Origin: an uncultured Dysgonomonas sp.
GTDB lineage: Bacteria > Bacteroidota > Bacteroidia > Bacteroidales > Dysgonomonadaceae
Assembly (NCBI RefSeq): GCF_900079725.1
Contig: NZ_LT599032.1
Span: 3,964,054 to 4,028,053, forward strand
Direction of reading: 5' to 3'
Length of the DNA stretch: 64,000 bases
The position numbers were made by a program, and so were the translations under genes. Every line of letters begins with the position of its first letter. Position 1 is the stretch's first letter. Below the pieces are notes generated by a model. It was not told where the DNA came from. It saw only the letters and a list, made by a program, of their open reading frames with translations, and did not search any database. Shown here piece after piece: positions 10,786 through 28,524 of the stretch.

Positions 10786-11457
10786 AGTATTGTTTTTAAT
10801 ATGTTAAATATTCGATGTTTTATCATGCTTGAATTTATTTAGAATTTTATTTTTATATCATTTTTTGTTGTTTATAATCCTTATTTGTATCTATTACTTG
10901 TAGATATGTCATTTTTGTAATTTTATTTTATAGTGTTTTATTGTTTCTTTATCTGTTAAGATATATATACATTCACAGTATCATTGTTTTTGAACCTGAA
11001 TTTGAGAACTTAATTCTAGTAAGCTAACATTAAAATCTTTTATTATGAATAAAAAATTATTTCCCGGTAATTGATAATTACAATTTGTACTTTATCCTAT
11101 ATTCAATCAATCTTTTTTTTACTTGTATTTGGGATGTAAATAAACCTTGTATAATATATTAAGTGCCCCAAAAGTCTTTTGTTAAATGATTCATCTTCAC
11201 ACAAGAAAGAAGTTTTGATATAGGTATATCTGAATTTTTAGACAGTTGCTGTAAGCCTCTCTTTTAGCTACAGTATCTGCATTATGATAGCTTCTGGAAA
11301 ATGGAGTAAGGCTTTTCACATGCCGAAAAATAGAAGATATTTTAATTTAACACCATAAAAAACGCCTATGAATAAATCTGATTCTGATCAAGTACTACTT
11401 AATCCAAAAAAATGTAGAACAACTACGAGTGTAATCATTTAAATCTTTTACAACTGT
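10786..11457. other. Long A+T-rich leader region before the PUL 2 susC gene
   Basis: 672 bp without a supportable gene. Extremely A+T-rich up to about 11160, then more mixed. TGTATTTG at 11124-11131 is one base off a -7 box, but no clear -33 box precedes it, so I do not call a promoter. The susC promoter and a long 5' leader probably lie here. Confidence 0.5.
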
Positions 11458-14400
11458 ATGATGAAAACAACATGTTTTAGAAAGAAAAACACACAAATAA
11501 AGAAGACTTATAGAGTACTGAAACTGATAACCCTTTTATTATTGGTAGTCAGTATCTGTAGTGCAAATGATACTTTTACCGGAAAGGGAAAAAGTGAGTG
11601 GGCTCCGGACAAAACGAATCGGGCAGCAGAAAATACCGCTGACAATGAAATATCGGATAGCCAACAAAAAACTACTAAAAAGAGAATCTCAGGAACCGTA
11701 ATAGATGAAAAAGGTGAACCATTGATCGGTGTAACAGTTGCAGTGAAAGGAACTACAATAGGTGTGGTTACTAATTTTGATGGAATGTACGTGATCGATG
11801 TTCCTCAAGGTGCAACTCTCACATTTTCGTATGTAGGATTTGTAAAGCAAGAGATTAAAGTAAACGGAGATCTTATAATAAACATAACCTTAATGGAAGA
11901 TACCAATTCACTGAAGGAAGTGGTAGTCGTAGGTTTTGGTACTCAGAAAAAAGAGTCGATAGTAGGCTCTATTTCCACCGTTCAGCCCGAAAAACTCCGT
12001 GTGAGTTCCTCGCGTTCGGTTAGTAATGCACTGACAGGACAGATATCGGGTATAATCGGTGTGCAGCGATCAGGAGAGCCGGGGTATGACAATTCCAGTT
12101 TTTGGATTCGGGGAATCAGTACCTTTGCCGGAAACCGATCGCCGTTAGTATTAGTCGATGGGATAGAGCGTTCGTTGAATAATATCGAACCGCAGGAGAT
12201 CGAATCCTTTTCTGTACTGAAAGATGCCGCCGCCAGTGCCGTTTATGGTGTGCGTGGTGCTAACGGTGTAATACTCATTAATACAAAACGCGGAAAAATA
12301 GGTAAGCCTACTGTTATGGTGAGAAGTGAATATGCAATGACTCAGCCCGTGAAGTTACCGGAATATTTAGGTGCCGCTGATTACCTGCAATTGATGGATG
12401 ATATACGGATAGAAAACGGAGGTAAAGCTGTAAATACGGATCGAATACATAAAACAAGGACGGGATGGGACCCGGAACTATACCCTGATGTGGACTGGAT
12501 GGATGCGATCACCAAAGATCACGCTTCTAATTTCAGAACTACAATTGATGTATCCGGTGGTAGTGAAAAGTTGCGTTATTCATTTGTTGCTGCATTCTAT
12601 AATGAGAATGGGATATTGGAGAGGGATAAATCGAATGAGTGGGATTCTTCAATTAAGCTCCAACGGTACAATGTCCGTTCCAATGTAGACATGGATCTGA
12701 CTCCTACAACCCTTCTGAGATTTAATATTGGTGGGTATATGCAAGATCGTAACTATCCGCCCGAGAGTATAGATAAGATATTTTCAGAAGCCTTTGTCAA
12801 TCCACCGTTTGTTCATCCTACAAGATATTCGACAGGAGAAATACCCCGCATCATGGAGCGTACCAATCCTTGGGCGCTTGCAACCCAGCAGGGATACGAG
12901 CGGGGAAGCCAAAGTAAGATAGAATCCCTGTTTTCTATCGATCAGGATTTGAAAATGATATTGCCGGGACTCAGAATCAAAGGAATTTTCTCATTCGATA
13001 AATATAATACAACATCCGTCAAACGTAATAAAACACCGTATTATCATAATCCGGCATCGGGACGCGATGATGATGGAAATCTTACACTAACACTCTTATC
13101 GGGCGAAGGCCAGGACTTTCTACAATACTCTCAGGATTCGGAATGGGGCGATAAGAGTAATTACCTGGAAGGTAATATTTCATATTCCCAGACATTCAAA
13201 AAACATGCGGTGGATGCCATGTTTATGTACAATCAGCGCAACTATGACAATGGAGATAAACTACCTTTCCGTAATCAGGGAATTGCTGGTCGCTTGTCTT
13301 ATATCTATAATTCGAGATATGTAGGGGAGTTCAATTTTGGATACAATGGTTCCGAAAATTTTGCTAAGGGTAAACGCTATGGATTTTTTCCTTCAATGGC
13401 ATTAGGCTGGATTATTTCAGAAGAGGCATTTATGTCATCTATAAATAAGACCATGACTAAATTAAAATTGAGGGCATCGATAGGTAAAGCCGGGAACGAT
13501 AGGCTTGACGGACGCCGCTTTGCATATTTGAGCACTATAGGATGGTACGAAAAAGCCTATTCGTGGGGCTCGAATAAAGAAGTATCCCGTGATGGGAGAC
13601 AGGAAGGTGAAATCGGTGTTTCGGCGATGACATGGGAAACCGTAACAAAAACAAATCTCGGCTTGGAAGTAGGCCTGTGGAATAATGTTGTCGATTTTCA
13701 GGTTGATGTATTTAAAGAAAAGCGTAAAGACATTTTTATGATGCGTCGCTCATTGCCTTCAACTGTCGGCATTCCCGTTCAGCCGTGGGATAACTATGGA
13801 AAGGTGGATAACAGGGGTGTTGATATAACCTTAAACGTAAACAAGAGCATAACGAAAGACCTTTTCGTATCCTTATTGGGAACATTTACGTATGCAAAGA
13901 ATGAAGTTGTAGAGATCGATGAGCCATTTACCGTTATTGGTACTAATCGTTCTCAGACAGGCCGTCCTGTAGGACAGATTTATGGATTGATAGCAGAAAG
14001 ATTATTTATAGATGATGATTTCTCCGATGTGGAGAATGGCGTACTGAAGGACGGGATACCCCGTCAGAATTTTGCCAGTTCGATTCGTCCCGGTGATATA
14101 AAATATAAAGACGTAAACAATGATGGCGTAATAGATACAAATGATAATACGGCCATAGGCGGGACATTCGATCCGGAAATAGTATATGGATTCGGTCTGA
14201 ATATCAAGTATAAAAGTCTCGATTTCGGTTTCCTTTTTCAGGGTAATGGTAGAACGTATCGTATTATAGGTTCAGGCAGCAGCTATTTTATTCCGGGTTC
14301 TGGTAATGGCGCTCTTGGCAATATCTTCGATAATGTAGATAGTCGATGGACGCCTGAAAATCCGAGGCAGGACGCTTTTTACCCAAGACTGCAAATGGGC

Positions 14401-14664
14401 TTTAATGCCAATAATAGCCAGGAGTCTACATGGTGGTTGAGAAATATGAGTATGCTGAGAATGAGGAATATAGAATTGGGATATACTTTGCCCCGCCATA
14501 TTGCAAATAGTGTATATCTCAATAATGCACGCTTTTTTGTAAGGGGAAACAATTTGCTTACTTTCTCAGGATTTAAGTTATGGGACCCGGAGATAGATAC
14601 TTCGACAGGTGCTAAATATCCTATGATGAAGACATTCTCATTCGGATTTGAAATCAACTTCTAA
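11458..14664 (+). CDS. SusC/RagA-family TonB-dependent outer-membrane transporter (PUL 2)
   Basis: 1068 residues. The start is a double ATG (11458 and 11461). A signal segment (about 20-38, LITLLLLVVSICSAN) follows a basic n-region. Then comes an unusual hydrophilic linker (about 39-76, rich in Lys, Asn and Ser) before the carboxypeptidase-regulatory domain (SGTVIDEKGEPLIGVTVAVK). The plug domain shows EVVVVGFGTQKKESIVGSIS, SPLVLVDGIERSLNNI and DAAASAVYGVRGANGVILIN, and the barrel ends FSFGFEINF. First gene of a long operon; susD follows after 11 nt. It should import a glycan or glycoside captured by the SusD and SusE/F-like partners. Confidence 0.95.
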   Translation: MMKTTCFRKKNTQIKKTYRVLKLITLLLLVVSICSANDTFTGKGKSEWAPDKTNRAAENTADNEISDSQQKTTKKRISGTVIDEKGEPLIGVTVAVKGTTIGVVTNFDGMYVIDVPQGATLTFSYVGFVKQEIKVNGDLIINITLMEDTNSLKEVVVVGFGTQKKESIVGSISTVQPEKLRVSSSRSVSNALTGQISGIIGVQRSGEPGYDNSSFWIRGISTFAGNRSPLVLVDGIERSLNNIEPQEIESFSVLKDAAASAVYGVRGANGVILINTKRGKIGKPTVMVRSEYAMTQPVKLPEYLGAADYLQLMDDIRIENGGKAVNTDRIHKTRTGWDPELYPDVDWMDAITKDHASNFRTTIDVSGGSEKLRYSFVAAFYNENGILERDKSNEWDSSIKLQRYNVRSNVDMDLTPTTLLRFNIGGYMQDRNYPPESIDKIFSEAFVNPPFVHPTRYSTGEIPRIMERTNPWALATQQGYERGSQSKIESLFSIDQDLKMILPGLRIKGIFSFDKYNTTSVKRNKTPYYHNPASGRDDDGNLTLTLLSGEGQDFLQYSQDSEWGDKSNYLEGNISYSQTFKKHAVDAMFMYNQRNYDNGDKLPFRNQGIAGRLSYIYNSRYVGEFNFGYNGSENFAKGKRYGFFPSMALGWIISEEAFMSSINKTMTKLKLRASIGKAGNDRLDGRRFAYLSTIGWYEKAYSWGSNKEVSRDGRQEGEIGVSAMTWETVTKTNLGLEVGLWNNVVDFQVDVFKEKRKDIFMMRRSLPSTVGIPVQPWDNYGKVDNRGVDITLNVNKSITKDLFVSLLGTFTYAKNEVVEIDEPFTVIGTNRSQTGRPVGQIYGLIAERLFIDDDFSDVENGVLKDGIPRQNFASSIRPGDIKYKDVNNDGVIDTNDNTAIGGTFDPEIVYGFGLNIKYKSLDFGFLFQGNGRTYRIIGSGSSYFIPGSGNGALGNIFDNVDSRWTPENPRQDAFYPRLQMGFNANNSQESTWWLRNMSMLRMRNIELGYTLPRHIANSVYLNNARFFVRGNNLLTFSGFKLWDPEIDTSTGAKYPMMKTFSFGFEINF

Positions 14665-14675
14665 ACAAGAATATT

Positions 14676-16595
14676 ATGAATACAAGAATATTAAAATATA
14701 TATTATTAAGCCTTGGACTTATATACTTTGGTTCGTGTTCCGATTATCTCGACAAGGATCCTGACGATGAACTGACTTTGGAAATGGTCTTTGGTGATAA
14801 GACCAGGACTGAAGAATGGCTGGCCAATGTCTACAACCAGGTAGAAGATCCTTATACTCTTTATGACCGGGTAGAGGCTATGGGAGACGATTTTGTTGTC
14901 AATCCCGGCTGGGAACAGTTTGGCATAACTATTATTTCCTACCAGACGGGCAACTGGAATCCGGCTAGTAACTGGACTCCGAATTATTGGAATATCTTAC
15001 CTCAGAAAATCCGTGCTGCCCATATCTTTATCCAAAATGCGAAGCCGAATCCGGCACAGCTTTTCAGCCTGAAAGAAGTAAATTATATGAAGGCAGAAGC
15101 TAAATTTCTGATAGCTTATTATCATTATCTTTTACTCAGGTATTATGGTTCTATTCCTATTTTGGATAAGATAACGGATATTTATGGTTCCGAAGATGAA
15201 ATAATGATAGGGCAAAGACCGTATGATGAAGTAGTGGACTGGATAGATCAACAACTCATTGATGCGGCAAAAGAATTACCTCCTATGTATGAAGAAACAC
15301 AAAAGTATGGGCGTGCTACATCCATTATGTGTCATGCCATCAGAGCCAGAGTACTTCTGCTTGCTGCAAGTCCGCTTGTCAACGGAAATCAAGACCCGGC
15401 CTATCTTAATTATACAAACAATAAGGGAGAGAAAGTATTCAATTCTGTACCTCAGTTATCGAAATGGGAGAGGGCGGTAGAAGCTTACAGAACCTTGCTA
15501 AACCTTGCTCTGGATAATGGCCATAAGTTATATTACGAATATCTGAACGACGGTAGTATCGATCCGTTTATGTCTTATCAGAATGTATTTTTCAAGAAAT
15601 TCAATGATGGGAATAAAGAGATTCTGTTTGCCCGTCCCGAGAATGCACATTCATTGTACGAATATGTGACACAACCTCGTGGAACCGGAGGTTCCGGCGC
15701 AGTAGGGGTAACTCAGTTGCTCGTCGACGATTTCTTTATGTCGAATGGTTTAAGGCCTATAACAGGGCATAATGCCAATGGATCACCTATTATAAACTCG
15801 GCATCGGGATATATCGAAAAAGGTTTTTCCTCAAAAACCGAATTCAGAAAAACAAAATGGATCGAGTCCAGGAATAGCACAACAGAGGGACAAGCATCGG
15901 AAGACTATAATCCCGTTACTTTAGCTGGTACTTTCAATATGTATTGTAATCGCGAGCCGCGCTTTTATATATCTGTCCTTTACAATGGATGCTGGTATAG
16001 GAGAGAGGCCAGGGAAACTAAATTCTATCTCGACTCGCCGGACGGGGGGCCTACACACGACTCACCGAGCAACGGTTATTTAGCCCGGAAGAAAGTACAT
16101 CCCGATTGCGATCCACGTAATAATATAAGTCCTTATCGTCCGGCTATTCTGGTTCGCTTGGCAGAAGTTTATCTGAGTCTGGCGGAAGCTCTCAACGAAG
16201 TAAGCTATTCGGAAGAAGCCATAGGTTATCTTAATCTGATAAGGGAGAGAGCCGGAATTCCGAAATATGGAACCCAACAGGGTGAGATTACGCCTCCGGC
16301 CAATCAGGACCAGTTGCGGGAAGCTATACGCATCGAACGAAGAGTAGAACTGAACTGTGAAGCGGCACTTCGTTTCGATGATATCCGCCGCTGGAAGATA
16401 GCAGCAGGTATATTGAACAATAACTTCTGGGGAATGAATTTCTATGGAACTGAGAAAAGCGACGATGATAATAATCCGGATGCATTCTTTGTACGGAAAG
16501 TCTATCAAAAGCGTATGTTTAAAGGTTATTGGATGCCAATTCCTCAAACCGATACAGACAAAAATTCCAATTTGAGACAACTGCCAGGATGGTAA
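14676..16595 (+). CDS. SusD/RagB-family outer-membrane lipoprotein (PUL 2)
   Basis: 639 residues, on the long side for SusD. Lipoprotein signal with Cys in YFGSCSDYLDKDPDDEL (Cys about 21). The TPR-like core shows MKAEAKFLIAYYHYLLLRYY, and the C-terminal SusD region shows RLAEVYLSLAEALNEVSYSE, RIERRVELNCEAALRFDDIR and PIPQTDTDKN near the end. It is the surface lid of the SusC encoded 11 nt upstream. Acidic residues after the Cys fit the Bacteroidota surface-export signal. The ligand is not known; downstream genes point to a rhamnose- and/or ribose-containing glycoconjugate. Confidence 0.95.
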   Translation: MNTRILKYILLSLGLIYFGSCSDYLDKDPDDELTLEMVFGDKTRTEEWLANVYNQVEDPYTLYDRVEAMGDDFVVNPGWEQFGITIISYQTGNWNPASNWTPNYWNILPQKIRAAHIFIQNAKPNPAQLFSLKEVNYMKAEAKFLIAYYHYLLLRYYGSIPILDKITDIYGSEDEIMIGQRPYDEVVDWIDQQLIDAAKELPPMYEETQKYGRATSIMCHAIRARVLLLAASPLVNGNQDPAYLNYTNNKGEKVFNSVPQLSKWERAVEAYRTLLNLALDNGHKLYYEYLNDGSIDPFMSYQNVFFKKFNDGNKEILFARPENAHSLYEYVTQPRGTGGSGAVGVTQLLVDDFFMSNGLRPITGHNANGSPIINSASGYIEKGFSSKTEFRKTKWIESRNSTTEGQASEDYNPVTLAGTFNMYCNREPRFYISVLYNGCWYRREARETKFYLDSPDGGPTHDSPSNGYLARKKVHPDCDPRNNISPYRPAILVRLAEVYLSLAEALNEVSYSEEAIGYLNLIRERAGIPKYGTQQGEITPPANQDQLREAIRIERRVELNCEAALRFDDIRRWKIAAGILNNNFWGMNFYGTEKSDDDNNPDAFFVRKVYQKRMFKGYWMPIPQTDTDKNSNLRQLPGW

Positions 16596-16620
16596 ATAAC
16601 GAAATTAAAAGAAGGAACAT

Positions 16621-17754
16621 ATGAAAGTCATATATCAAATAATAAAAGTAATTGTTTTAGTGGCGTTATCCGGTTGTTTCATCGCATGCGACGATGATGA
16701 TAACGGAGACCTTTCCGGGGGGAATACTCTGGTCGTAGAATCTTCGGGAAGTGAAATCATGTTACTGGACGAAAAAGCGAATGATGTTGCGGTCACCTTC
16801 ACTTGGAACGAAGGTAATAATCGGGGAGAAGGAACTTATCTTACCTACATGTTTAAGATGGATATAGCTGATAATAATTTTCAGTCATCCATACCTAAAG
16901 AGAAGATGGCGGAAGGTGTTTTTTCGAAGAGTTATACTCACGAAGAATTTAATGACCTTTTGCTCGATTACTGGAAAATAAAAGCCGGAGAAACGGTGGA
17001 TATGGAAGCCAAGATAATTGCAGATGTAAACAACTCTTCGGTATATATGAAACCTGAAGTAGCTGTGGTTCCCTTTAGTGTAAAAACCTATGTTACTCCT
17101 TCCAAGCCCTTGTATCTGGTAGGCTCTGCTACCGAAGCAGGAATGGATCCGTCGAAAGGAATATTAATAAATGAGGTAATAAATGGCCGTACATACAACT
17201 GGAAGGGAAATCTGAAAGCAGGAGCTTTCAAACTTATTTCTTCTCAGGAAAGTATGTTGCCTTCCTTTAATAAAGGGGATGATGATAATTCTATTGTAGA
17301 GCGGTCAGACGAAAGCCAGCCGGATAATCTGTTTTCGGTAGAGGCAGACGGACTTTATGCCATGTCGTTCAATCGCAAGACAATGATATTTATCTACAAA
17401 TATATGCCATACGAGAATGTATATATGGTTGGAAATGCTACACCGGCAGGATGGAATATAGGAACATCGACTACAATGGATTGGAATCCGGCAAATCCGA
17501 CTGTTTTTACATATAAAGGCTGGTTGTATGCCGGAGAAATGAAGCTCCCTCTCGAAAATGGTACAGGCAACTGGAATTGCGACTATCTGATGCCACCTAC
17601 CGGCAACGAATCTATCACAGGAGAATGGCAGAATGTTAAGTTTATACCGCAGGGAAATCCGGATAATAAATGGATTGTTGCTGCCGATCAGGCTGGTAAT
17701 TATATTGTTACACTGGATACGGAAACTATGAAAATCAAATTCGAAAAACAGTAA
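16621..17754 (+). CDS. SusE/SusF-like surface glycan-binding lipoprotein A
   Basis: 377 residues. Lipoprotein signal (candidate Cys at 19 and 23; the second is followed by DDDDNGD, which fits a surface-export signal). An N-terminal SusE-type Ig-like domain (about 35-155, with FTWNEGNN and KSYTHEEFNDLLLDYW) precedes two SusF/SusE C-terminal-type beta modules at about 164-260 and 267-377 (each begins YLVGSATEAG or YMVGNATPAGW). In starch systems such modules bind oligosaccharide at the cell surface. Here they probably hold the PUL 2 ligand near SusC/SusD. It sits 25 nt after susD and 6 nt before a related gene. Carbohydrate specificity cannot be inferred. Confidence 0.88.
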   Translation: MKVIYQIIKVIVLVALSGCFIACDDDDNGDLSGGNTLVVESSGSEIMLLDEKANDVAVTFTWNEGNNRGEGTYLTYMFKMDIADNNFQSSIPKEKMAEGVFSKSYTHEEFNDLLLDYWKIKAGETVDMEAKIIADVNNSSVYMKPEVAVVPFSVKTYVTPSKPLYLVGSATEAGMDPSKGILINEVINGRTYNWKGNLKAGAFKLISSQESMLPSFNKGDDDNSIVERSDESQPDNLFSVEADGLYAMSFNRKTMIFIYKYMPYENVYMVGNATPAGWNIGTSTTMDWNPANPTVFTYKGWLYAGEMKLPLENGTGNWNCDYLMPPTGNESITGEWQNVKFIPQGNPDNKWIVAADQAGNYIVTLDTETMKIKFEKQ

Positions 17755-17760
17755 TAAGAG

Positions 17761-19320
17761 ATGAGAAATATATATAAACTTGTATATGGATTCCTTTGTA
17801 TAACGGTTGCAGGTCTGCTTTTCTCCTGCTCCGACGACGATAAATACAGAGTCGCTCCTGAGATAGAGGGAACATTTTCCCTCACTCTTACTTCTCCTCA
17901 GGCGAATGCAGAGGTAATACTGGATAAAGAGAAAGCGAATGAAACCGCCGTTACATTTGCTTGGAAAATGGCAAATGACAAGGGCGCTGATGCTACTACT
18001 TTCCATTATGATTTCGATATGGATATAGCCGGAAACAATTTCGAAACGGCTATAGATGTTGTAAATCTGGAGAGTAACTTATCGAAAAGCTTTACACACA
18101 AGGAACTGAGCGACCTGATAGTGAGTCATTGGGGAAAAACAACCGGCTCTGTCGTCGAATTGGAGGCACGTTTGAAGGCAACCAATACAGTTACAGGTGC
18201 AAAAACTAGGACAGTTTGGGCGACGGTTAAATTCAAGGTCTCGGATTTCGAAACCGAAGTTTTTGAAATAGTTGTTGAAAAGCCAGAAGAAGATGCACTC
18301 GTTTCTTTATCAATAATGAAAGATTTGGAAACAGCCATTGATTTTTCATGGAAGGCTGTGAATAATAAAGACGAAGAGGTTTCAGTGTTCAGTTATAGCT
18401 TTACGATGGATATTGCCGGAAATGAGTTTGCGGCAGCCATTCCGGTCGAAGATCTGGGACAAGTCGCTCAAAAGAGTTATACACATCGCCAATTAAGCGA
18501 CCTTATTGGAATGCATTGGGGGAAGAATTTAGGTGATTTGGTTGAACTTGAGGCTAAAATAATAGCTACGAATAACGAGTTAATAGAAAACCCTATAGAA
18601 ACAGTAATCAGATTCAACGTACAGAATAATTATCTGCTTCCCGAAAACCTCTATTTAACAGGAGAAGCCACTTCTGCCGGAAATAATCTTTCCAATGTAT
18701 TAGTACTCGATAAATCAGAAGATGGAAAAGGTTTCTATTGGAGGGGGACGCTATCTACAAACGGAGGGTTTAAATTCCTTTATTCGAACGAAAGTATGTT
18801 GCCATCACTCAACAAAGGTGAAGGAGAGGCTTCTTTATCACCAAGGAGGGAAAACACCGAAGCTGATGCTCTATTCTCTGTTACAAAAAATGGAAATTAT
18901 GCTATTGCGATCAATCTGGTAGAGATGAGTATAGCCTATAAGTTCGTTCCGTTAGAAAACCTTTATTTATTGGGTAATGCCGCACCAGCCGGATGGAATA
19001 TCGATGATGCAGACGAAGTAGTCTGGCAACGCCAAAGCCCGAATATTTTTATATATGAAGGACAATTGAATACAGGAGAATTGAAAATGCCATCCGAGAG
19101 AGGCAATTGGTTATGCGATTTTCTGATGGCCTATGATCCTGCCGATCCGGATAAGACTTTGGTGCCTATAACCGGTGACTGGCAAGACGCTACGATTGTA
19201 AACGGAGCAGATGCCATGAATAATAACAATCTTGATAAAAAGTGGGAGATAACATCCGCCGGAGCTTACAAAGTGACGGTAGATATGAATAATATGAAGG
19301 TGAAGTTTGAAAAGAAATAA
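17761..19320 (+). CDS. SusE/SusF-like surface glycan-binding lipoprotein B, with duplicated SusE domain
   Basis: 519 residues. Lipobox LFSC with Cys 23, followed by SDDDK. Two tandem SusE-type Ig-like domains (about 40-142 and 176-272) repeat the pattern FDMDIAGNNF...SFTHKELSDLIVSHWGK and FTMDIAGNEF...SYTHRQLSDLIGMHWGK. Two SusF/SusE modules follow (about 296-395 and 400-519), the second beginning LYLLGNAAPAGWNI. The extra SusE domain makes it longer than its neighbour, apparently by internal duplication. Expected to be a surface binding protein working with SusC/SusD; start at an ATG 6 nt after the previous gene's stop. Confidence 0.88.
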   Translation: MRNIYKLVYGFLCITVAGLLFSCSDDDKYRVAPEIEGTFSLTLTSPQANAEVILDKEKANETAVTFAWKMANDKGADATTFHYDFDMDIAGNNFETAIDVVNLESNLSKSFTHKELSDLIVSHWGKTTGSVVELEARLKATNTVTGAKTRTVWATVKFKVSDFETEVFEIVVEKPEEDALVSLSIMKDLETAIDFSWKAVNNKDEEVSVFSYSFTMDIAGNEFAAAIPVEDLGQVAQKSYTHRQLSDLIGMHWGKNLGDLVELEAKIIATNNELIENPIETVIRFNVQNNYLLPENLYLTGEATSAGNNLSNVLVLDKSEDGKGFYWRGTLSTNGGFKFLYSNESMLPSLNKGEGEASLSPRRENTEADALFSVTKNGNYAIAINLVEMSIAYKFVPLENLYLLGNAAPAGWNIDDADEVVWQRQSPNIFIYEGQLNTGELKMPSERGNWLCDFLMAYDPADPDKTLVPITGDWQDATIVNGADAMNNNNLDKKWEITSAGAYKVTVDMNNMKVKFEKK

Positions 19321-19344
19321 TTATTAAACCAAATATAACTGAAT

Positions 19345-20454: not shown

Positions 20455-20469
20455 TTAAATAAAAGTATT

Positions 20470-21198
20470 ATGAGAAATTTAGCACTATTAGTTATAGGAA
20501 CTCTGTTCAGTATTAATTTGCTAGCTCAAATGAGTCCTGAACAAACAGAATGGTATACTCCGCAACCTCCGAAAGTAATTCCGGGAGCAGATAAGAATCA
20601 GCCGCCTTCCGATGCCGTTATTCTCTTCGATGGCACGGATCTTTCAATGTGGCAGGCCGAAAAAGGTGGAGCTGCTAAATGGAAAGTTCAGAATGGGGAA
20701 ATGATCGTTGCTCCCGGTACCGGCTCTATAACAACAAAGAAATATTTTGGCGACTGCCAGCTGCATGTGGAGTTCAAGTCTCCTGCTCCGCAGCATTATA
20801 ATGGACAAGATAGGGGGAATAGCGGTATTATTATCCAGACACGCTACGAAGTGCAGGTTCTCGATATCGACAATAATGAGACCTATGTTAACGGCATGAC
20901 TGGCAGTATCTACAAGCAGCAGGCTCCGTTAGCCAATGCCTATACCAAAAATGGAGAATGGCAGGTGTATGATATCTATTGGAAAGCACCGAAGTTCGGG
21001 ACAGGCGGGAAATTAGAGTCGCCTGCTATGATTACTGTTGTACTGAATGGCATAATGGTGCAGAATAACTATATACTGAAAGGAAATACACCATATATCG
21101 GATTCCCTGATTATAATGCTCATGGCCGTCTGCCTCTGATGTTGCAGGATCATGGAACTGAAGTAGCATTCCGCAATATCTGGATCAGGGATTTATAA
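20470..21198 (+). CDS. DUF1080-family (3-keto-disaccharide hydrolase) exported protein
   Basis: 242 residues with a type I signal peptide (1-19, ending NLLAQ). The DUF1080 domain spans about 55-242, beginning AVILFDGTDLSMWQ, then WKVQNGEMIVAPGTGSI, GNSGIIIQTRYEVQVLD and the last strand VAFRNIWIRDL. The family has a concanavalin-like fold and includes enzymes that cleave glycosides already oxidised at C3. A Gfo/Idh/MocA oxidoreductase gene follows after 17 nt, the usual partner for the oxidation step, so the pair may perform periplasmic oxidation-assisted glycoside cleavage. The substrate is not determined. Confidence 0.85.
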   Translation: MRNLALLVIGTLFSINLLAQMSPEQTEWYTPQPPKVIPGADKNQPPSDAVILFDGTDLSMWQAEKGGAAKWKVQNGEMIVAPGTGSITTKKYFGDCQLHVEFKSPAPQHYNGQDRGNSGIIIQTRYEVQVLDIDNNETYVNGMTGSIYKQQAPLANAYTKNGEWQVYDIYWKAPKFGTGGKLESPAMITVVLNGIMVQNNYILKGNTPYIGFPDYNAHGRLPLMLQDHGTEVAFRNIWIRDL

Positions 21199-21215
21199 CC
21201 AAATATGTTGACATT

Positions 21216-22523
21216 ATGAGTATTTCAAGACGATCGTTTCTCAAAACAGGTTCTATATTGGCTGCAGGTGCAATGATGCCATCCTTGGGACGGAGTAATT
21301 CACTCTTTAATAGTTCAGCAAATGATACGGTAAATGTAGCTCTTATAGGCTGCAAGAATATGGGGTGGGCCAATTTGTCGGACTTCTTGTTGCATAAAAA
21401 TGTGCGGTGCTTAGCTCTGTGTGATGTAGATCAAAACATATTGGCGACCTGTTCCTCTCAGCTGGAAAGTAGTTTCGGGCAGAAAGCCGAACTATATAGC
21501 GACTATAGAAAAGTGCTCGGGCGTAAGGATATACACGCCGTTATTATCGGTACACCCGATCATTGGCACTGTTTGCAATTTGTAGATGCATGTGCTGCGG
21601 GAAAAGACGTATATGTAGAAAAACCGATAGCCAATAGTATCGCCGAGTGTGATGCAATGGTCAAGGCGGCAAAGAAATACAATACGGTAGTGCAGGTGGG
21701 GCAGCAGCAGCGTAGCAGCAAGCATTGGCAGCAAATGATAGAATATATACGTGCAGGGCGTTTGGGGAAAATAGGACAGGTAAAAGTATGGGGCAACTTT
21801 AATTATGCAGCTCTTCCCTCTCCTGTGACCGATAGTGCAATACCTGAGGGTGTTGATTTCGAAAGATGGTTGGGACCGATGCCTCTGTTACCTTTCAATC
21901 AGCAACGTTTTCATGGGACGTGGCGTATGTTCTGGAATTACGGTGGCGGCCTGATGACTGACTGGGGGGTGCACTTGCTGGATATGGGATTATGGGGTAT
22001 GGATGTGAAAACGATGCCTGAATATACGATTGCATCGGGTGGTAAATTCTATTTTCCGGAAGGAGCACATCAGACGTTCGATTCTATGGAGGTTACGTAT
22101 GGCTTCAAAGACTTCATCATGACGTGGTCTAACAGTGCTGGCGTAGAAAGTGGCCCATATGGAAAAAACTATGGAGTATTGTTTAAGGGTACAAATGGCA
22201 CTTTAGTAGCCAATCGTGACGACTGGGAGGTATTTCCCGAAGGGAATAAGATTGGTAAGACCAGCATGAAAGCCGATTATCGGGATCATAAAGATCATAT
22301 AACCAACTTCCTGGAATGCATGAAGACCCGAAATATGCAGACAGCATGTACTATAGAGAATGGAAGCCTGTGTGCTAAATATGCTCAATTGGGTAATATC
22401 TCGGCACGTATGGGAGGTGCAAGGCTTATCTATGACGATTATAGCAGGACATTTAATAATCCGGATGCGGACAAGTATCTGAAACCGGATTATCGCAGCC
22501 CTTGGGTATTTCCTGAACTATAG
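21216..22523 (+). CDS. Tat-exported Gfo/Idh/MocA-family oxidoreductase
   Basis: 435 residues. A twin-arginine signal (SRRSFLKTGSILAAGA at 4-19) marks export with bound cofactor. The Rossmann NAD(P)-binding domain starts VNVALIGCKNMGW. TPDHWHCLQFVDACAAGK and VEKPIA (EKP at 135-137) are the family's cofactor/catalytic signature, and DWGVHLLDMGLWGM follows in the C-terminal domain. These enzymes oxidise or reduce sugar carbons. Next to a DUF1080 hydrolase it most likely makes or uses 3-keto sugars in the periplasm. Seventeen nt separate it from that gene, and a hairpin-bearing 95-nt gap follows. Confidence 0.9.
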   Translation: MSISRRSFLKTGSILAAGAMMPSLGRSNSLFNSSANDTVNVALIGCKNMGWANLSDFLLHKNVRCLALCDVDQNILATCSSQLESSFGQKAELYSDYRKVLGRKDIHAVIIGTPDHWHCLQFVDACAAGKDVYVEKPIANSIAECDAMVKAAKKYNTVVQVGQQQRSSKHWQQMIEYIRAGRLGKIGQVKVWGNFNYAALPSPVTDSAIPEGVDFERWLGPMPLLPFNQQRFHGTWRMFWNYGGGLMTDWGVHLLDMGLWGMDVKTMPEYTIASGGKFYFPEGAHQTFDSMEVTYGFKDFIMTWSNSAGVESGPYGKNYGVLFKGTNGTLVANRDDWEVFPEGNKIGKTSMKADYRDHKDHITNFLECMKTRNMQTACTIENGSLCAKYAQLGNISARMGGARLIYDDYSRTFNNPDADKYLKPDYRSPWVFPEL

Positions 22524-22536
22524 TATTTTTTAGAAG

Positions 22537-22590
22537 AGGATGCATCGATCATTTTTCTAAGTAGTACACCTTCGGTGCATCCTTTTGTTT
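22537..22590 (+). terminator. Intra-operon hairpin, possible partial terminator
   Basis: AGGATGCA (22537-22544) pairs with TGCATCCT (22576-22583), then TTTGTTT follows. An inner CACCTTCGGTG can form a smaller stem. It lies 14 nt after the oxidoreductase stop and 29 nt before the GH78 start, so it could lower expression of the distal genes. Confidence 0.5.
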
Positions 22591-22618
22591 ATTATTCATA
22601 TTTAATGAAAATGAAATA

Positions 22619-24253
22619 ATGATAAATAGAACATCAATATTCTTACTACTGTTAATATTCTCTCATACATTTTCGTATGGTCAGGATATTTATGGCGCTA
22701 AAAGAAAATCATGGCTGGAAAAAGCCGAAGCGAATAAGCCGGTATTGATTGTAACGGAAAAGAAACCCCTGCAACAAGTAGAAATGGTGAAAGATCCGGA
22801 CGCTTTTCAGGGATGGAAAGCAATGAGGATCGGGGCTATAGAAGACTTGTATAAAGAATCTTTTAAATCGAAGGTGATTGTAGACTTCGGAGAACATATT
22901 ACCGGTTCGTTCAGTTTCTCGGTTGGTATACTGGCCAATACGCCCGATGCTCCTTTACGATTTAAACTGACATTCGGAGAAGTTCCGTCGGAGGTGGTAA
23001 CTCCTTTCGACCCATTTCCTGCAGGAAGTCTCAGCCGGGCATGGCTACAGGATGAGGTTATGACAGTGATGACTTTTCCGGCTGTTGTTACCATTCCGCG
23101 CAGGGTATCGTTCCGTTATGTGAAGATAGAATTACTAGCCAACTCGTCTTACGATTTCAATATCTCAGGTATGAGTTGTAAAGCTGTAACTTCTGCCTCT
23201 TCTACACCCGAACCGTTGCTGAATACTACCCCTCAGATATTCAAAGATATAGACAGAGTAGGGTTGCATACACTCAAAGAATGTATGCAGACTGTATATG
23301 AGGATGGTCCGAAAAGAGATCAGCGATTGTGGCTTGGCGATTTGTACCTTGAGGCATTGGCCAACTATGAATCGTTCAGGCAAAATAATCTTACTAAACG
23401 ATGCCTGTATCTGCTTGCAGCTTTGAGCCAGCCTGAGGGTTGGTTACACGGGACAGTATTTGAAGTGCCGGAACCACATCCACAGTCGGGACAAAAATTG
23501 TTGGATTATTCGTTCCTTTTTACAGTCTCGCTTAAAGATTATCTGAAAGCGACGAATGATCGGGAAACTGTGGATGATCTGTGGCCTGTAGCCAAAAAGC
23601 AGGTTGACATTGTGAAAAACTATTTACAGGACAATGGCTTGATGGACTTTAAGCGGGCAAACCGGGAATGGTGGATTTTCTTCGACTGGAAAGATAATTT
23701 TCACAGAGAGGTTTCTTTACAGGGGATTTCCATTTTTGCCCTTCGTGAGACTTATGAGCTTGCTAAGCAGTTGAACCGGGAAAGCGAAGTGGCTGAACTT
23801 CCTGCATTGATAAAGAAAATGACAAAAGCTGCCCAAAAGAATTATTATAATCCGAAGAGCGGGTTTTATACAGGTTTGCTAAACGATCAGATATCTTATG
23901 CTTCGCAGGTATGGATGGTATTGGGCGGCGTGCCAACAAAAGCACAGGCTCAACGCGCACTAAATGCTTTGCCTGTAACAGAAAATGTTTGTTATCCGGG
24001 TGGGCCATATATGTATCATTATTATGTCCAGGCATTGATAGACAGTGACCTGCCTGATGAAGCACGCAAGGTAGTTGAAAATTATTGGGGAGGTATGTTG
24101 AAAAAAGGTGCAGATACATTCTGGGAGGTATATGATCCTCAAGATGAATTCAGGTCACCCTACAATTTCTATCCAATGAATAGCTATTGCCATGCGTGGA
24201 GCTGTACCCCGGTCTATTTTATACGAAAATATCCAGAGATATTTCAGAAGTAA
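22619..24253 (+). CDS. GH78-type alpha-L-rhamnosidase-like glycoside hydrolase
   Basis: 544 residues. Signal peptide 1-21 (ending FSYGQ). A beta domain (about 45-195) precedes an (alpha/alpha)6 catalytic domain. The GH78 signature appears as EDGPKRDQRLWLGD at 228-241; Asp229, Asp234 and Asp241 fall at the spacing of the catalytic acids of this family. WWIFFDW (351-357) and DTFWEVYDP (Glu503) match the other conserved site segments. Such enzymes release terminal L-rhamnose or related sugars. The protein is shorter than many GH78 enzymes, which carry extra N-terminal beta domains. No rhamnose isomerase or kinase is visible nearby, so the true sugar might differ. Confidence 0.8.
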   Translation: MINRTSIFLLLLIFSHTFSYGQDIYGAKRKSWLEKAEANKPVLIVTEKKPLQQVEMVKDPDAFQGWKAMRIGAIEDLYKESFKSKVIVDFGEHITGSFSFSVGILANTPDAPLRFKLTFGEVPSEVVTPFDPFPAGSLSRAWLQDEVMTVMTFPAVVTIPRRVSFRYVKIELLANSSYDFNISGMSCKAVTSASSTPEPLLNTTPQIFKDIDRVGLHTLKECMQTVYEDGPKRDQRLWLGDLYLEALANYESFRQNNLTKRCLYLLAALSQPEGWLHGTVFEVPEPHPQSGQKLLDYSFLFTVSLKDYLKATNDRETVDDLWPVAKKQVDIVKNYLQDNGLMDFKRANREWWIFFDWKDNFHREVSLQGISIFALRETYELAKQLNRESEVAELPALIKKMTKAAQKNYYNPKSGFYTGLLNDQISYASQVWMVLGGVPTKAQAQRALNALPVTENVCYPGGPYMYHYYVQALIDSDLPDEARKVVENYWGGMLKKGADTFWEVYDPQDEFRSPYNFYPMNSYCHAWSCTPVYFIRKYPEIFQK

Positions 24254-24304
24254 GATAGGTCAAAAAACAAAAACAATATTCGGTAATCTTTTAATATAAT
24301 GTAG

Positions 24305-25225
24305 ATGGACTCAAAAAAAATAGTAGTGTTAGGAAGTTGTAACACAGATATGGTCGTGAAATCGGATCGCTTGCCTGTTCCCGGAGAAACCATATTGGGT
24401 GGCACCTTCTTTATGAACCCCGGCGGAAAAGGAGCAAATCAGGCTATTGCCGCAGCACGTCTGGGAGGAAATGTGACTTTTATAGCAAAGACGGGTAACG
24501 ATCTCTTCGGACGCCAATCGGTGAAGCAATACGAGGAGGAAGGACTCGATACCAGTTACATTCTTTCAGATCCCAACTTTCCGTCCGGCGTAGCTCTTAT
24601 ATCAGTAGACAGAAATGGTGAGAATTGCATAGTTGTGGCTTCGGGAGCAAATATGACTTTGTGTTCCGAGGATATAAACAATGCAGAGTCGGCTATAGGT
24701 TCAGCCGATATCTTATTGATGCAACTGGAAATACCAATAGAAACTGTAGAATATGTAGCAGAAATAGCTTCTGCCAAAGGTATTCGGGTTATTCTGAATC
24801 CTGCTCCGGCGCAGTCTTTGTCTAATTCTTTACTCAAGAATCTGTATATGCTTATTCCTAACAAGTCGGAGGCGGAGATACTATCGGGTATCAAAGTCGC
24901 GGATTGGGACAGTGCCCGCAAAGCTGCTCAGATAATAAGTGCTAAAGGAGTGGATAAGGTGGTGATTACACTTGGCTCGCAGGGAGCCTTACTTAAAGAT
25001 GGCGATACTTTTCACGAAATACCTGCTCAGAAAGTTGATGCCGTGGATACGACTGCTGCGGGCGATACTTTCTGTGGTGCGATAACGGTAGCTATATCGG
25101 AAGGAGCCAAGCTTGTAGATGCCGTAAAGTTCGCATCGGAATGCGCCGCTATAACTGTGACAAAGATGGGCGCACAATCGTCCATACCTTTCAGAAAAGA
25201 AGTGGAATTCAAATCTAAAAATTAA
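24305..25225 (+). CDS. rbsK: Ribokinase
   Basis: 306 residues, the usual ribokinase length, cytoplasmic. The PfkB signature 1 segment MNPGGKGANQAIAAARLGG is near 37-55, and signature 2 DTTAAGDTFCGAI (248-260) carries the catalytic base Asp254 and the anion-hole Gly-Ala. It phosphorylates D-ribose at O5 with ATP. The gene is followed after 6 nt by a sugar permease and then a nucleoside hydrolase, the layout expected of ribose scavenging from nucleosides in Bacteroides. Start at the ATG in GTAGATGG; 51 nt separate it from the GH78 gene. Confidence 0.92.
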   Translation: MDSKKIVVLGSCNTDMVVKSDRLPVPGETILGGTFFMNPGGKGANQAIAAARLGGNVTFIAKTGNDLFGRQSVKQYEEEGLDTSYILSDPNFPSGVALISVDRNGENCIVVASGANMTLCSEDINNAESAIGSADILLMQLEIPIETVEYVAEIASAKGIRVILNPAPAQSLSNSLLKNLYMLIPNKSEAEILSGIKVADWDSARKAAQIISAKGVDKVVITLGSQGALLKDGDTFHEIPAQKVDAVDTTAAGDTFCGAITVAISEGAKLVDAVKFASECAAITVTKMGAQSSIPFRKEVEFKSKN

Positions 25226-25231
25226 AGTGAT

Positions 25232-26242
25232 ATGTTTATCGTAGATAGTTATTCTCTAGCAGTATTGTTCTGCTTTGTTACCATGCTCTGCTGGGGTTCG
25301 TGGGGTAATACCCAGAAGCTGGCAGGAAAGACATGGCGGTACGAATTGTTTTATTGGGATTATGCCATCGGTATGCTGATATTTGCGGTTGTCATGGCAT
25401 TTACTTTGGGCAGCTTCGGCGACTCGGGACGAAGTTTTATAGACGACCTAAACCAGGCTGACACATCATTTCTGGTAAGTGCATTGATCGGTGGTGTTAT
25501 TTTCAACGCATCTAACATCCTGTTAGCTGCGTCTACTTCCATTGCAGGATTGTCTGTTGCTTTCCCTCTGGGTGTGGGTTTGGCTTTAGTTCTGGGGGTG
25601 TTTATCAATTACTTCAGCACACCTAAAGGCGATCCTGTAACACTGTTCTTAGGGGTATTTCTTATCGTTATTGCTATTATCCTTAACGGAATAGCAGCCA
25701 GCAAGAAAACAGCAGGTAAGAAAACCGATAAGGATGCCAGGAAAGGAATCCTGTTAGCTGCACTGGCCGGAATCCTGATGTCGTTCTTTTATCGCTTTGT
25801 GGCAGCGGCAATGGATTTGGATAACTTTGACCAACCTACCGCTGGTATGATAACTCCTTATACAGCCTTCTTTATATTTGCACTAGGTGTACTTCTTAGC
25901 AATTTTGTATTTAATACGATTGTGATGAAGAAGCCGTTTGTAGGTTCTCCCGTTACTTATAAAGAGTATTTTTCCGGTTCATTCGGTACGCATATGGTTG
26001 GTATTCTGGGTGGCTGTATTTGGGCTTTAGGTACATTGTTCAGTTACATTGCAGCAGGAAAAGCCGGGGCTGCGATTTCGTATGCTCTGGGACAGGGTGC
26101 GCCTATGATTGCGGCAATATGGGGTATATTTATATGGAAAGAGTTTAAAGGTACGTCCAAAACTGTAAATACACTATTGACCCTGATGTTTATTCTCTTT
26201 ATCTGTGGTTTGGGATTGATTATCCTAGCCGGACGTTCGTAA
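25232..26242 (+). CDS. GRP-type (glucose/ribose porter) inner-membrane sugar permease
   Basis: 336 residues with about ten transmembrane segments (for example LAVLFCFVTMLCWGSWGNT near the start, then LSVAFPLGVGLALVLGVFI and IISYALGQGAP-type motifs late). The WGSWGNTQK start and the AAGKAGAAISYALGQGAPMI segment suggest the drug/metabolite-transporter superfamily branch of ribose, glucose or rhamnose permeases. Linked to ribokinase (6 nt) and nucleoside hydrolase, so D-ribose is the best-supported substrate, by context only. Rhamnose is an alternative given the GH78 gene. Confidence 0.82.
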   Translation: MFIVDSYSLAVLFCFVTMLCWGSWGNTQKLAGKTWRYELFYWDYAIGMLIFAVVMAFTLGSFGDSGRSFIDDLNQADTSFLVSALIGGVIFNASNILLAASTSIAGLSVAFPLGVGLALVLGVFINYFSTPKGDPVTLFLGVFLIVIAIILNGIAASKKTAGKKTDKDARKGILLAALAGILMSFFYRFVAAAMDLDNFDQPTAGMITPYTAFFIFALGVLLSNFVFNTIVMKKPFVGSPVTYKEYFSGSFGTHMVGILGGCIWALGTLFSYIAAGKAGAAISYALGQGAPMIAAIWGIFIWKEFKGTSKTVNTLLTLMFILFICGLGLIILAGRS

Positions 26243-26279
26243 TTGTCTGAATATCTTATTGAAACTTAAAATATATATT

Positions 26280-27329
26280 ATGAAACAAACAATTCTATTC
26301 ACAGCTATTATAGCATTTATCGTGGTTGGCTGTTCTGGTAAGAAAGCTGAAACATCGCAACAATCGGCCAATACAGAACCTATCAATATTATATTTGATA
26401 CCGATATGGGTAACGATGTCGATGACGCTCTGGCATTAGATATGCTATATAAATACATAGAGGCGGGAAGAGTTAATCTACTGGCTATTCCTACAACCAA
26501 AGTTAGTCAGTATTGTGCTGAATATGTAGACGTAATGAATACATGGTATGGACATCCTGATATACCTGTTGGTACAGTTGTCAACGGAACCAGTATCGAT
26601 AACGAAGACAATTTTGTGCGGGCGGTATGTCAGATGCAAGAGAATGGTAAGCCTGTATTTGAACGGACTGTAAAGGACTATGATTCATATCCTAAATCTG
26701 TAGCATTGTACCGCAAAGTACTGGCTGCTCAGCCTGATGCTTCTGTATACGTTGTTTCTGTAGGCTTTTCTACCAACCTTGCACAACTGCTTGATAGCCC
26801 TGCTGACGAGTATTCTCCGCTGACAGGGAAAGAGTTGGTGAAGAAGAAAGTGGTTCTGCTTTCTGCTATGTTGGGACATTTCACGGATCAGAACTTTCAG
26901 GAATTCAATGTGAAATGTGATATTCCGGCTGTGCAAAGAGTGATGAAAGAATGGCCAACACCTATTGTTGCTTCTCCTTACGAACTGGGTGATGCCATCC
27001 TCTATCCATCAAAGAGTATAGAGACTGATTTCAACTGGGGGATGGTAAATCCGCTAGTGGAAGGTTATAAAGCATATCTGCCAATGCCATACGACAGGCA
27101 GACTTGGGATTTGACCTCCTTACTTTATGTTGTGGAAAAAGACAAAGGCTACTTCGGTTCATCGGGACCGGGCAAGATAGAGATAGATGATAATGCAATC
27201 TCACGTTTTGTTCCGGATGCTGAAGGTATGCATAGTTATTTGACTGTAACTACTGAACAGGCTGAAGTCGTAAAGAAATATTTCATAGAACTTATAACTC
27301 AGAAACCGGCTAAGTATAGGACTAAGTAG
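26280..27329 (+). CDS. Nucleoside hydrolase, lipoprotein
   Basis: 349 residues from the ATG at 26280. An in-frame TTG 21 nt upstream is unlikely because the ATG gives a proper lipoprotein signal (MKQTILFTAIIAFIVVGCSG, Cys18). The calcium/ribose-binding cluster DTDMGNDVDDA is at 40-50, the hallmark of inosine-uridine nucleoside hydrolases, which cut the N-glycosidic bond to free ribose and a base. Lipid anchoring puts the activity in the envelope, so ribose would be released before uptake by the permease encoded just upstream. Last gene of PUL 2, ahead of a strong palindrome. Confidence 0.9.
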   Translation: MKQTILFTAIIAFIVVGCSGKKAETSQQSANTEPINIIFDTDMGNDVDDALALDMLYKYIEAGRVNLLAIPTTKVSQYCAEYVDVMNTWYGHPDIPVGTVVNGTSIDNEDNFVRAVCQMQENGKPVFERTVKDYDSYPKSVALYRKVLAAQPDASVYVVSVGFSTNLAQLLDSPADEYSPLTGKELVKKKVVLLSAMLGHFTDQNFQEFNVKCDIPAVQRVMKEWPTPIVASPYELGDAILYPSKSIETDFNWGMVNPLVEGYKAYLPMPYDRQTWDLTSLLYVVEKDKGYFGSSGPGKIEIDDNAISRFVPDAEGMHSYLTVTTEQAEVVKKYFIELITQKPAKYRTK

Positions 27330-27360: not shown

Positions 27361-27388
27361 ATGAAACTGCCCGGCCGGGCAGTTTCAT
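27361..27388 (+). terminator. 28-nt perfect palindrome between convergent genes
   Basis: Bases 27361-27388 are a perfect palindrome with 14-nt arms (ATGAAACTGCCCGG and its complement), followed by GTTTCATCTTTT. It lies between the convergent nucleoside hydrolase and oxidoreductase genes and is best read as a transcription end signal, possibly working in both directions. Confidence 0.8.
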
Positions 27389-28467: not shown

Positions 28468-28524
28468 ATAGCGGTAATTATTATAAGGTTAAGGTCTGAG
28501 ACCCATTTATTATTTTGGCTATCC

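Follow-up and report, generated by a model that had tools for sequence, protein, structure and literature searches.

A probable Rus-type PUL with a replaced importer and an extended enzyme set in the genome of an uncultured Dysgonomonas sp.

The rus locus of Bacteroides thetaiotaomicron has two ribokinases, and rus loci vary in their cargo. A published study describes RusR, RusT and the PUL BT2803-BT2809, needed for the use of ribose by B. thetaiotaomicron (PMC12596196). DUF1080 proteins, including the 3-ketotrehalose hydrolase BT2157, are described in another paper (PMC9007349). A gene of this family located beside a gene for a Gfo/Idh/MocA oxidoreductase was used here as a mark of the 3-keto-glycoside pathway, represented by the DUF1080 hydrolase BT2157, the BT2158/BT2159 dehydrogenase families and Alistipes AL3.

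The window, a 64,000-nucleotide stretch of contig NZ_LT599032.1 from an uncultured Dysgonomonas sp., contains eleven consecutive genes, all on the + strand, separated by intergenic gaps of 6-95 bp, as revealed by the ORF list and the Pfam and NCBIfam assignments. An earlier note on this DNA had described an unbroken run from a SusC/SusD pair to a nucleoside hydrolase at 11458-27329, and each gene named there was found in this arrangement. The genes of that interval are real, but a RusR-family gene, the most telling of all, had been overlooked, and the 5' boundary of the locus should be placed at 9307. The features are the following:

9307-10785, + strand: RusR (BT2802)-family ribose-utilisation regulator (NCBIfam NF058569)
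11458-14664, + strand: SusC-type TonB-dependent importer without STN (CarboxypepD_reg and Plug domains; TIGR04056, 1017 bits)
14676-16595, + strand: SusD-type lipoprotein (PF07980, 172.6 bits)
16621-17754, + strand: SusE-family lipoprotein (PF14292, PF16411; lipobox by eye)
17761-19320, + strand: SusE-family lipoprotein (PF14292, PF16411; lipobox by eye)
19345-20454, + strand: SusF/SusE-repeat secreted binding protein (PF16411, SusF_SusE, 125.9 bits, three stretches/repeats)
20470-21198, + strand: DUF1080/3-keto-glycoside hydrolase-family protein, KGH (PF06439, 3keto-disac_hyd, 144 bits)
21216-22523, + strand: Tat-type Gfo/Idh/MocA oxidoreductase, predicted glycoside C3-dehydrogenase (Pfam, profiles, fold)
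22534-22586, + strand: intra-cluster hairpin with a T-rich tail, a candidate for partial termination or RNA processing (folding z-scores)
22619-24253, + strand: GH78 alpha-L-rhamnosidase, small KoRha type (PF21104 and PF17389)
24305-25225, + strand: ribokinase RbsK/RusK, pfkB kinase (TIGR02152, 379 bits, cut-off 300)
25232-26242, + strand: RusT/GRP-type sugar permease (PF07168, Ureide_permease, 92.5 bits; PF06800, Sugar_transport, 50.5 bits)
26280-27329, + strand: nucleoside hydrolase-family lipoprotein, NH (PF01156, IU_nuc_hydro, 53.8 bits, cut-off 34.2)
27361-27388, + strand: terminator-like hairpin at the cluster end (12 pairs; z -5.5)

The locus resembles the Rus PUL of B. thetaiotaomicron in having a RusR-family regulator, a SusC/SusD pair, a ribokinase, an NH and a RusT-type permease. 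It differs from it in the importer, which is of another lineage, in the presence of SusE/SusE/SusF, DUF1080, C3-dehydrogenase-like and GH78 proteins, and in the single ribokinase. The latter is the sole one of eight matches in the genome that scores above the cut-off of TIGR02152 (D-ribokinase), and the NH gene is the only PF01156 gene of the genome. Its start is most likely the ATG at 26280, which by eye leads into a lipobox-like VVGCSG, and not the TTG at 26259. The NH profile built from 19 relatives matched 16 solved sequences at E<=0.01, including 14 named nucleoside hydrolases, the others being YbeK and YeiK. The Asp-rich motif and the distal Asp of the family are present. In the alignment of these relatives D42, D46, D48, D49 and D277, which we take to be catalytic and calcium sites, are invariant, and in the DTD motif the initial Asp varies.

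The product of 9307-10785 matches the BT2802/RusR family NF058569 over its full length (E 6.1e-138) with 461 bits, under the curated cut-off of 550, and presumably has the same role as RusR, judging by a family match below that cut-off. A homolog scoring 661 is encoded in L105, a rus-like locus of a same-genus genome that comprises a regulator, two rbsK genes, a 386-aa protein, SusC, SusD, two DUF4832 proteins, NH and a permease. Seven RusR-family homologs were found in six of the 110 NH loci compared, and in each of these loci one of them adjoins rbsK. The AlphaFold model of the window protein (pLDDT 86) predicts an all-helical TPR-like superhelix, for which Foldseek returned nothing at E<=0.001; the weak hits beyond that threshold were of TPR type, Rap and MalT among them.

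The SusC and SusD pair is present, but it is not of the lineage of other rus-like loci. The window SusC shows 55-61% identity to the SusC proteins of 15 relatives taken from the SusD search; with NH-linked SusCs the figure is 25-30% in those alignments that span over 90% of the window protein. The window SusD has 48-62% identity to the SusDs of the same 15 relatives, against 25% in the sole near-full alignment with an NH-linked SusD (L104), the remaining alignments covering 13-35%. The domain search detected no STN domain in the SusC of the window or of the related genome G007, whereas 12 of the 15 importer relatives possess one; a FecR neighbour, likewise found in 12 of the 15, is absent beside the window SusC. 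These comparisons show that the importer, as far as sequence places it, belongs to another PUL lineage, mostly FecR-controlled and far from rus-type importers. For this reason, the locus was classed as a variant of the Rus type whose importer is foreign, and not as a canonical Rus PUL. We infer the direction of the importer transfer, as well as its ligand. The cargo of the PULs of SusD relatives is mixed, with three GH123 and a GH97 in L252 and GH76, GH31 and GH3 in L256, and thus these PULs name no substrate. The N-terminus of the third binding protein (19345-20454) resembles a signal sequence; by eye, no evident lipobox cysteine is present.

The DUF1080 protein and the oxidoreductase belong to the same two protein families as those of the 3-keto-glycoside pathway and are adjacent, as in that pathway. 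In contrast to that pathway, the window oxidoreductase falls far under the BT_2158 and BT_2159 cut-offs and the pair is linked to ribose genes; in addition, locus L231 has a xylose isomerase-like (PF01261) gene beside the oxidoreductase, and the window oxidoreductase has no such neighbour. KGH has a signal-like N-terminus, and its nearest solved chain is 4qhz (E 2e-68). Adjacent and co-directional KGH and oxidoreductase genes occur in 16 of 35 loci (14 of the 33 fetched relatives, the window and G007). The Tat signal of the oxidoreductase scores 20.1 bits, under the Pfam cut-off of 22.7. Against the BT_2158 family the protein reaches 165 bits of the required 750, i.e. it is not that equivalog, and it is far under the BT_2159 equivalog cut-off too; consequently, its exact reaction is not fixed. 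A profile search of solved structures matched 8tdf, 8tdh and DgpA, a glucoside-3-dehydrogenase and DgpA being the closest, and the fold search with the model gave the Alistipes glucoside-3-dehydrogenase AL3 as the best match (Z 36.4/36.1; next 33.0). The enzyme is predicted, on profile and model similarity, to be a glycoside C3-dehydrogenase.

The third added enzyme is related to KoRha of Klebsiella oxytoca (4xhc, E 2e-113). The two share a small size and the rhamnose pocket, and the window GH78 differs in its signal-like N-terminus and PUL context. In larger GH78 enzymes, Glu is expected as the acid. A loss of the general acid, considered because of an RDQR motif, was rejected, as KoRha and its paper put the acid at the preceding Asp, which is kept; all 11 rhamnose-pocket positions taken from that paper and compared, including D234 (acid) and E503, are identical (PMC4690510). 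Among 21 full-length copies of the GH78 subfamily, two fragments from G036 being left out, three lie within 12 kb of an NH gene (the window, G007 and G444), the NH in G444 having only 36% identity; this linkage is suggestive only. Taken together, the tests on sequence and fold bear out the suggestion of the earlier note that a ribose locus is joined here with a 3-keto-glycoside-type pair and a rhamnosidase.

The twelve-gene block from the RusR-family gene to NH recurs in the same order in G007, where the flanks differ and identity is 71-91%, except for susE2 (43%). The gene order claimed earlier is thus beyond chance. The full set was found in two related genomes only, the window genome and G007, among the genomes searched, the best three to five candidates per genome being scored in the order-wide searches. 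The comparison with 110 other non-redundant NH loci, many of them ended by contig ends and with seven loci duplicating a contig dropped, showed that ribokinase and RusT-type permease, which occur here together with NH, are both present in 27. KGH was found in none of the 110, and this GH78 in one, which is without rbsK and permease. As KGH and GH78 are found in none of the 27 other rbsK and permease loci, a function shared with the ribose genes rests on the two related genomes. Among the papers listed in literature searches, judged by title and the start of the abstract, none dealt with this gene combination, and absence from print is not claimed.

It is somewhat unlikely, though quite conceivable, that two adjacent units without a common substrate are present, a generic PUL for glycosides, which runs from SusC to the oxidoreductase, preceding a ribose unit (GH78, RbsK, RusT and NH). 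The strong hairpin with a T-rich tail at 22534-22586, lying between the oxidoreductase and GH78 genes, agrees with this division and could give rise to two separate transcripts. Its energy with flanks is -25.4 kcal/mol (z -4.1, 0 of 200 shuffles), and z is -5.3 for the short stretch. The stem arms are the same in G007 and the loop has diverged; the G007 stretch, ended at the 3' arm, folds more weakly (z -2.0, 11 of 200 shuffles). The arm core occurs in the window at the hairpin itself only (2 matches against 0.75 expected), and the terminator scan, which allows loops of up to 8, did not list the hairpin. The other-lineage importer also speaks for separate units, as does the finding that only two of the 14 fetched relatives with adjacent KGH are near an NH (G125 and G036). 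However, the RusR-family gene is located upstream of susC and not of GH78, the SusC is without the STN domain and FecR neighbour of most relatives, the twelve-gene block is intact in G007 despite the changed flanks, and the Bacteroidales-type promoter pattern, in a weak test, yielded four matches across the window (3.2 expected), with none ahead of susC or in the 95-bp gap before GH78. Terminator-like sites in the scan (12 against 14.5 in shuffles) showed no excess, sigma-70-like sites numbered 55 against 58.4 in shuffles, the Rfam scan of 8800-31000 found no family, and the region upstream of susC has only patchy similarity to G007.

Broad hexoside scavenging by the importer and the 3-keto pair, as in B. 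thetaiotaomicron, with the ribose link arising from shared conditions of use, appears unlikely. It would agree with the closest fold match of the oxidoreductase, a glucoside-3-dehydrogenase solved with trehalose, and with the wide use of the DUF1080 family in this genome (13 PF06439 matches). Against it stands the distribution of the oxidoreductase clade: eight of 34 copies lie within 12 kb of an NH, compared with 0.19 expected from a rough density estimate in which the distance was picked after the data were seen, related genomes and cut contigs are included, and the NH counts were obtained with unequal search cut-offs, 1e-30 for the family and 1e-50 for the order. The remaining 26 copies have no NH nearby. 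Supported branches of the oxidoreductase tree force at least four changes of the NH-proximity label, whether gains or losses; none of 500 label shuffles was as low, which shows only label clustering of the kind that near-copies cause. A chance run of genes or an annotation artefact would fit the restriction of the full set to two related genomes, but it is extremely improbable given the order kept in G007 between changed flanks and the clear family assignments.

It is probable that the locus is a Rus-type PUL with its importer replaced and its enzyme set extended, and the gene content suggests that the bacterium feeds on a decorated ribose compound. One glycoconjugate of ribose and a deoxysugar, along the lines of the earlier note, may be the common target of all the genes. 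The view of it as a ribose locus was strengthened by the adjacent RusR-family gene, the twelve-gene synteny and the linkage of the oxidoreductase clade with NH elsewhere. By analogy with B. thetaiotaomicron, the RusR-family protein would sense ribose or a ribose derivative and switch the locus on. The SusC-D-E-E-F importer without STN would take the presumed ligand, a ribose-bearing glycoconjugate, into the periplasm, where GH78, judging by its family and active site, may cut off terminal alpha-L-rhamnose. The Tat-type oxidoreductase would oxidise a sugar at C3, as its family and fold predict, and the DUF1080 protein, by its family, would hydrolyse the 3-keto-glycoside. The lipoprotein nucleoside hydrolase would release ribose, which would enter via RusT and be phosphorylated by RbsK. 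The rhamnose would feed into the pathway for this sugar that the chromosome encodes; a single RhaA gene lies elsewhere in the genome. The combination of a FecR/STN-lineage importer, deprived of the STN domain that the control of its relatives needs, with a RusR-family regulator suggests how a PUL can be rebuilt by module exchange.

3'-Keto-nucleosides readily lose the base. A rather speculative possibility, which seems doubtful at present, is that ribose itself is the target of the oxidoreductase and the DUF1080 protein, which would work as an oxidation-assisted nucleosidase: C3' oxidation of a nucleoside or O-riboside would let the base or aglycone depart easily; as part of this idea, the route would open ribosides that ordinary nucleoside hydrolases cannot cut, being rhamnosylated or otherwise blocked. 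The occurrence of the oxidoreductase clade near NH in several tree branches would be expected in that case. The data point to a recurrent linkage of C3-oxidising enzymes with ribose or nucleoside scavenging, which makes oxidation-assisted riboside cleavage directly testable. The Proteiniphilum-type rus-like loci L087-L090, all of one related genus, share with the window an NH and an oxidoreductase of this clade; in them the oxidoreductase gene immediately precedes NH. They differ from it in a divergent 340-aa regulator-type gene (LacI-type by eye), in the lack of a KGH or GH78 label in their stretches, and in an ADP-ribosylglycohydrolase-cluster gene after NH (PF03747 shown for L090); rbsK and the permease are also located within three of the four stretches.

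The locus at 9307-27329 (+ strand) is predicted to be a ribose polysaccharide utilisation locus (PUL) of the Rus type (named for the ribose utilisation system of Bacteroides thetaiotaomicron). Its importer is foreign to that type, and it also encodes a predicted rhamnosidase and a pair of enzymes for putative oxidation-assisted cleavage. All eleven genes named in the earlier note were found at 11458-27329, in the same direction and with gaps of 6-95 bp, and the labels given to them were backed by Pfam and NCBIfam; the substrate and the sequence of the reactions are inferred. The kinase exceeds the D-ribokinase cut-off of NCBIfam (379 vs 300 bits) and is the only one to do so among the genome's eight ribokinase-family matches. 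The hydrolase belongs to PF01156 (53.8 vs 34.2 bits cut-off) and is encoded by the genome's only gene of this family; it was judged by eye to be a lipoprotein, with the best start at 26280. A terminator-like hairpin lies 3′ of the last gene. Converging on the cluster is a minus-strand group (27457-30485) that encodes an amidohydrolase, a protein resembling glucosamine-6-phosphate isomerase and a Gfo/Idh protein whose N-terminus is signal-like, and a XylR-like regulator combining Peripla_BP_3 and an AraC-type HTH is encoded at 31087-32241 (−). A second PUL, also on the minus strand, consists of a DUF6377/TPR protein (7265-8884), SusC (4066-7032) and SusD (2248-3933).

The earlier note lacked one more gene, ORF 9307-10785, located 672 bp upstream of susC. 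A Pfam scan of this ORF gave no match. In NCBIfam its product hits NF058569, “BT2802 family ribose utilization protein”, over the full length (E 6e-138) with 461 bits, under the curated 550. Seven homologues were found in six of the 110 fetched nucleoside hydrolase (NH) loci, and in each of the six the ribokinase gene rbsK adjoins one. The locus of a genome of the same genus (G008) has the layout regulator-rbsK-rbsK-386 aa-SusC-SusD-DUF4832-DUF4832-NH-permease, and its regulator scores 661 bits with NF058569. For the window protein, the predicted model shows a TPR-like superhelix built entirely of helices, and Foldseek gave it only weak neighbours. We take BT2802 to be RusR, and the exact gene order of the B. 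thetaiotaomicron Rus locus is likewise assumed. PMC12596196 describes RusR as well as the Rus PUL BT2803-2809, which is required for ribose use. It seems that the RusR-family protein would regulate the locus studied here.

In the nearest relative, G007, the complete twelve-gene block recurs with its order unchanged and with 71-91% identity, except for susE2 (43%); its SusC was found as two pieces (84% and 91%), and the genes flanking the block differ from those in the window. The nearest SusD relatives belong to a different kind of PUL. Across 15 of these loci, identity to the window proteins is 55-61% for SusC and 48-62% for SusD; in 12 of them susC is directly preceded by a FecR-like gene, one more contig is cut off at that point, and two loci have none. 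An STN domain was detected in 12 of the 15 SusCs, and Pfam confirmed it for L248 alone; L256 has a region that can be aligned to it, but no domain was detected there. Neither the STN domain nor the FecR-like gene was seen in the window or G007. Compared with 14 NH-linked loci, the window SusC is 25-30% identical where more than 90% aligns (eight alignments), higher identities covering only 23-46% of it, and the window SusD is 25% identical in the sole alignment covering most of it. A SusE1 homologue is present in 11 of the 15 relative loci; at the cut-off used, neither the second SusE nor the SusF-like protein has a homologue there. Most simply, the importer would stem from a lineage that is mostly under FecR control, would have been placed under RusR and would have shed a signalling domain that was no longer needed, the direction and order of importer exchange and STN loss being what we infer.

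The closest protein to the window GH78 is KoRha (4xhc); the two have the same residue at all 11 pocket positions taken from PMC4690510, among them the acid Asp222 (D234) and Glu486 (E503). A second GH78 of the same type (58%) is encoded elsewhere in the genome, adjoining a SusC-like gene. At L083:9921-12625 (−) in G444, a genome from another family, a further member of this GH78 subfamily (52%) is encoded 38 bp upstream of an NH-family gene whose product is 36% identical and differs in the Asp motif; no SusC, SusD, rbsK or permease labels were present in that stretch.

The N-terminus of the Gfo/Idh/MocA oxidoreductase (21216-22523) is of the twin-arginine type, the Pfam Tat signal scoring 20.1 bits, below the cut-off of 22.7. 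Its profile hits include 8tdf, 8tdh and DgpA, and its model is nearest to the Alistipes glucoside-3-dehydrogenase AL3 (Z 36.4/36.1, rmsd 3.1/2.8, 377/373 aligned), with DgpA1 lower (Z 33.0). The BT_2158 equivalog cut-off was far from reached (165 of 750 bits). The DUF1080 protein, of the 3-keto-glycoside hydrolase (KGH) family, matches 4qhz. In PMC9007349 the DUF1080 protein BT2157 is described as hydrolysing 3-ketotrehalose, and for another such protein the role of a 3′-ketolactose hydrolase is proposed. The oxidoreductase and DUF1080 genes stand side by side in one direction in the window, in G007 and in 14 of 33 fetched relatives; one of the 33, G327, is only about 50% identical.

Searches of the family (101 genomes) and the order (392 genomes) yielded 34 oxidoreductase copies with an identity of about 58% or higher, of which eight have an NH gene within 12 kb:

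Oxidoreductase copies near nucleoside hydrolase genes
Window and G007: two of the eight copies
L087-L090, four genomes of one related genus: oxidoreductase directly upstream of NH
G125: NH followed, about 9-10 kb downstream, by KGH and oxidoreductase
G036: oxidoreductase about 5 kb from NH

Because a simple, rough density estimate expects 0.19 such copies, and the NH-near label requires at least four gains or losses by supported branches on the 35-row tree, this clade probably arrived near NH genes more than once. Two counts speak against repeated linkage: 26 of the 34 copies are located elsewhere, and of a further 110 non-redundant NH loci, 27 of which have both rbsK and permease, none has KGH and one has this GH78. 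The gene following NH in L087-L090 belongs to an 11-locus cluster whose scanned members (L090, L092, L098, L104) are ADP-ribosylglycohydrolases (PF03747). The G125 cluster (L072 and L230, G125:C117) holds two confirmed GH92 genes and an NH; KGH (73%) and the oxidoreductase (64%) follow some 9-10 kb further along. A second protein accompanies NH in seven loci, including L089:4396-5586, the only one scanned, which is weakly PF01156-like (26 bits, under the cut-off). NH relatives are common in MAGs of Planctomycetota, Verrucomicrobiota, Acidobacteriota and Armatimonadota (L126-L186). Of 385 loci, 80 were kept; among these, the ones from outside Bacteroidota lack any permease label, and rbsK is labelled once (L182).

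Co-transcription of the cluster is presumed. A hairpin with a T-rich tail is situated between the oxidoreductase gene and GH78 (folding energy against shuffled sequences, z −4.1). G007 has identical arms but a diverged loop; folded only to the 3′ arm, the G007 stretch is weaker (z −2.0, 11 of 200 shuffles equally good). The hairpin may reduce how strongly the distal genes are expressed, or it may divide the locus in two; in the latter case, GH78 groups with the ribose genes and not with the 3-keto pair.
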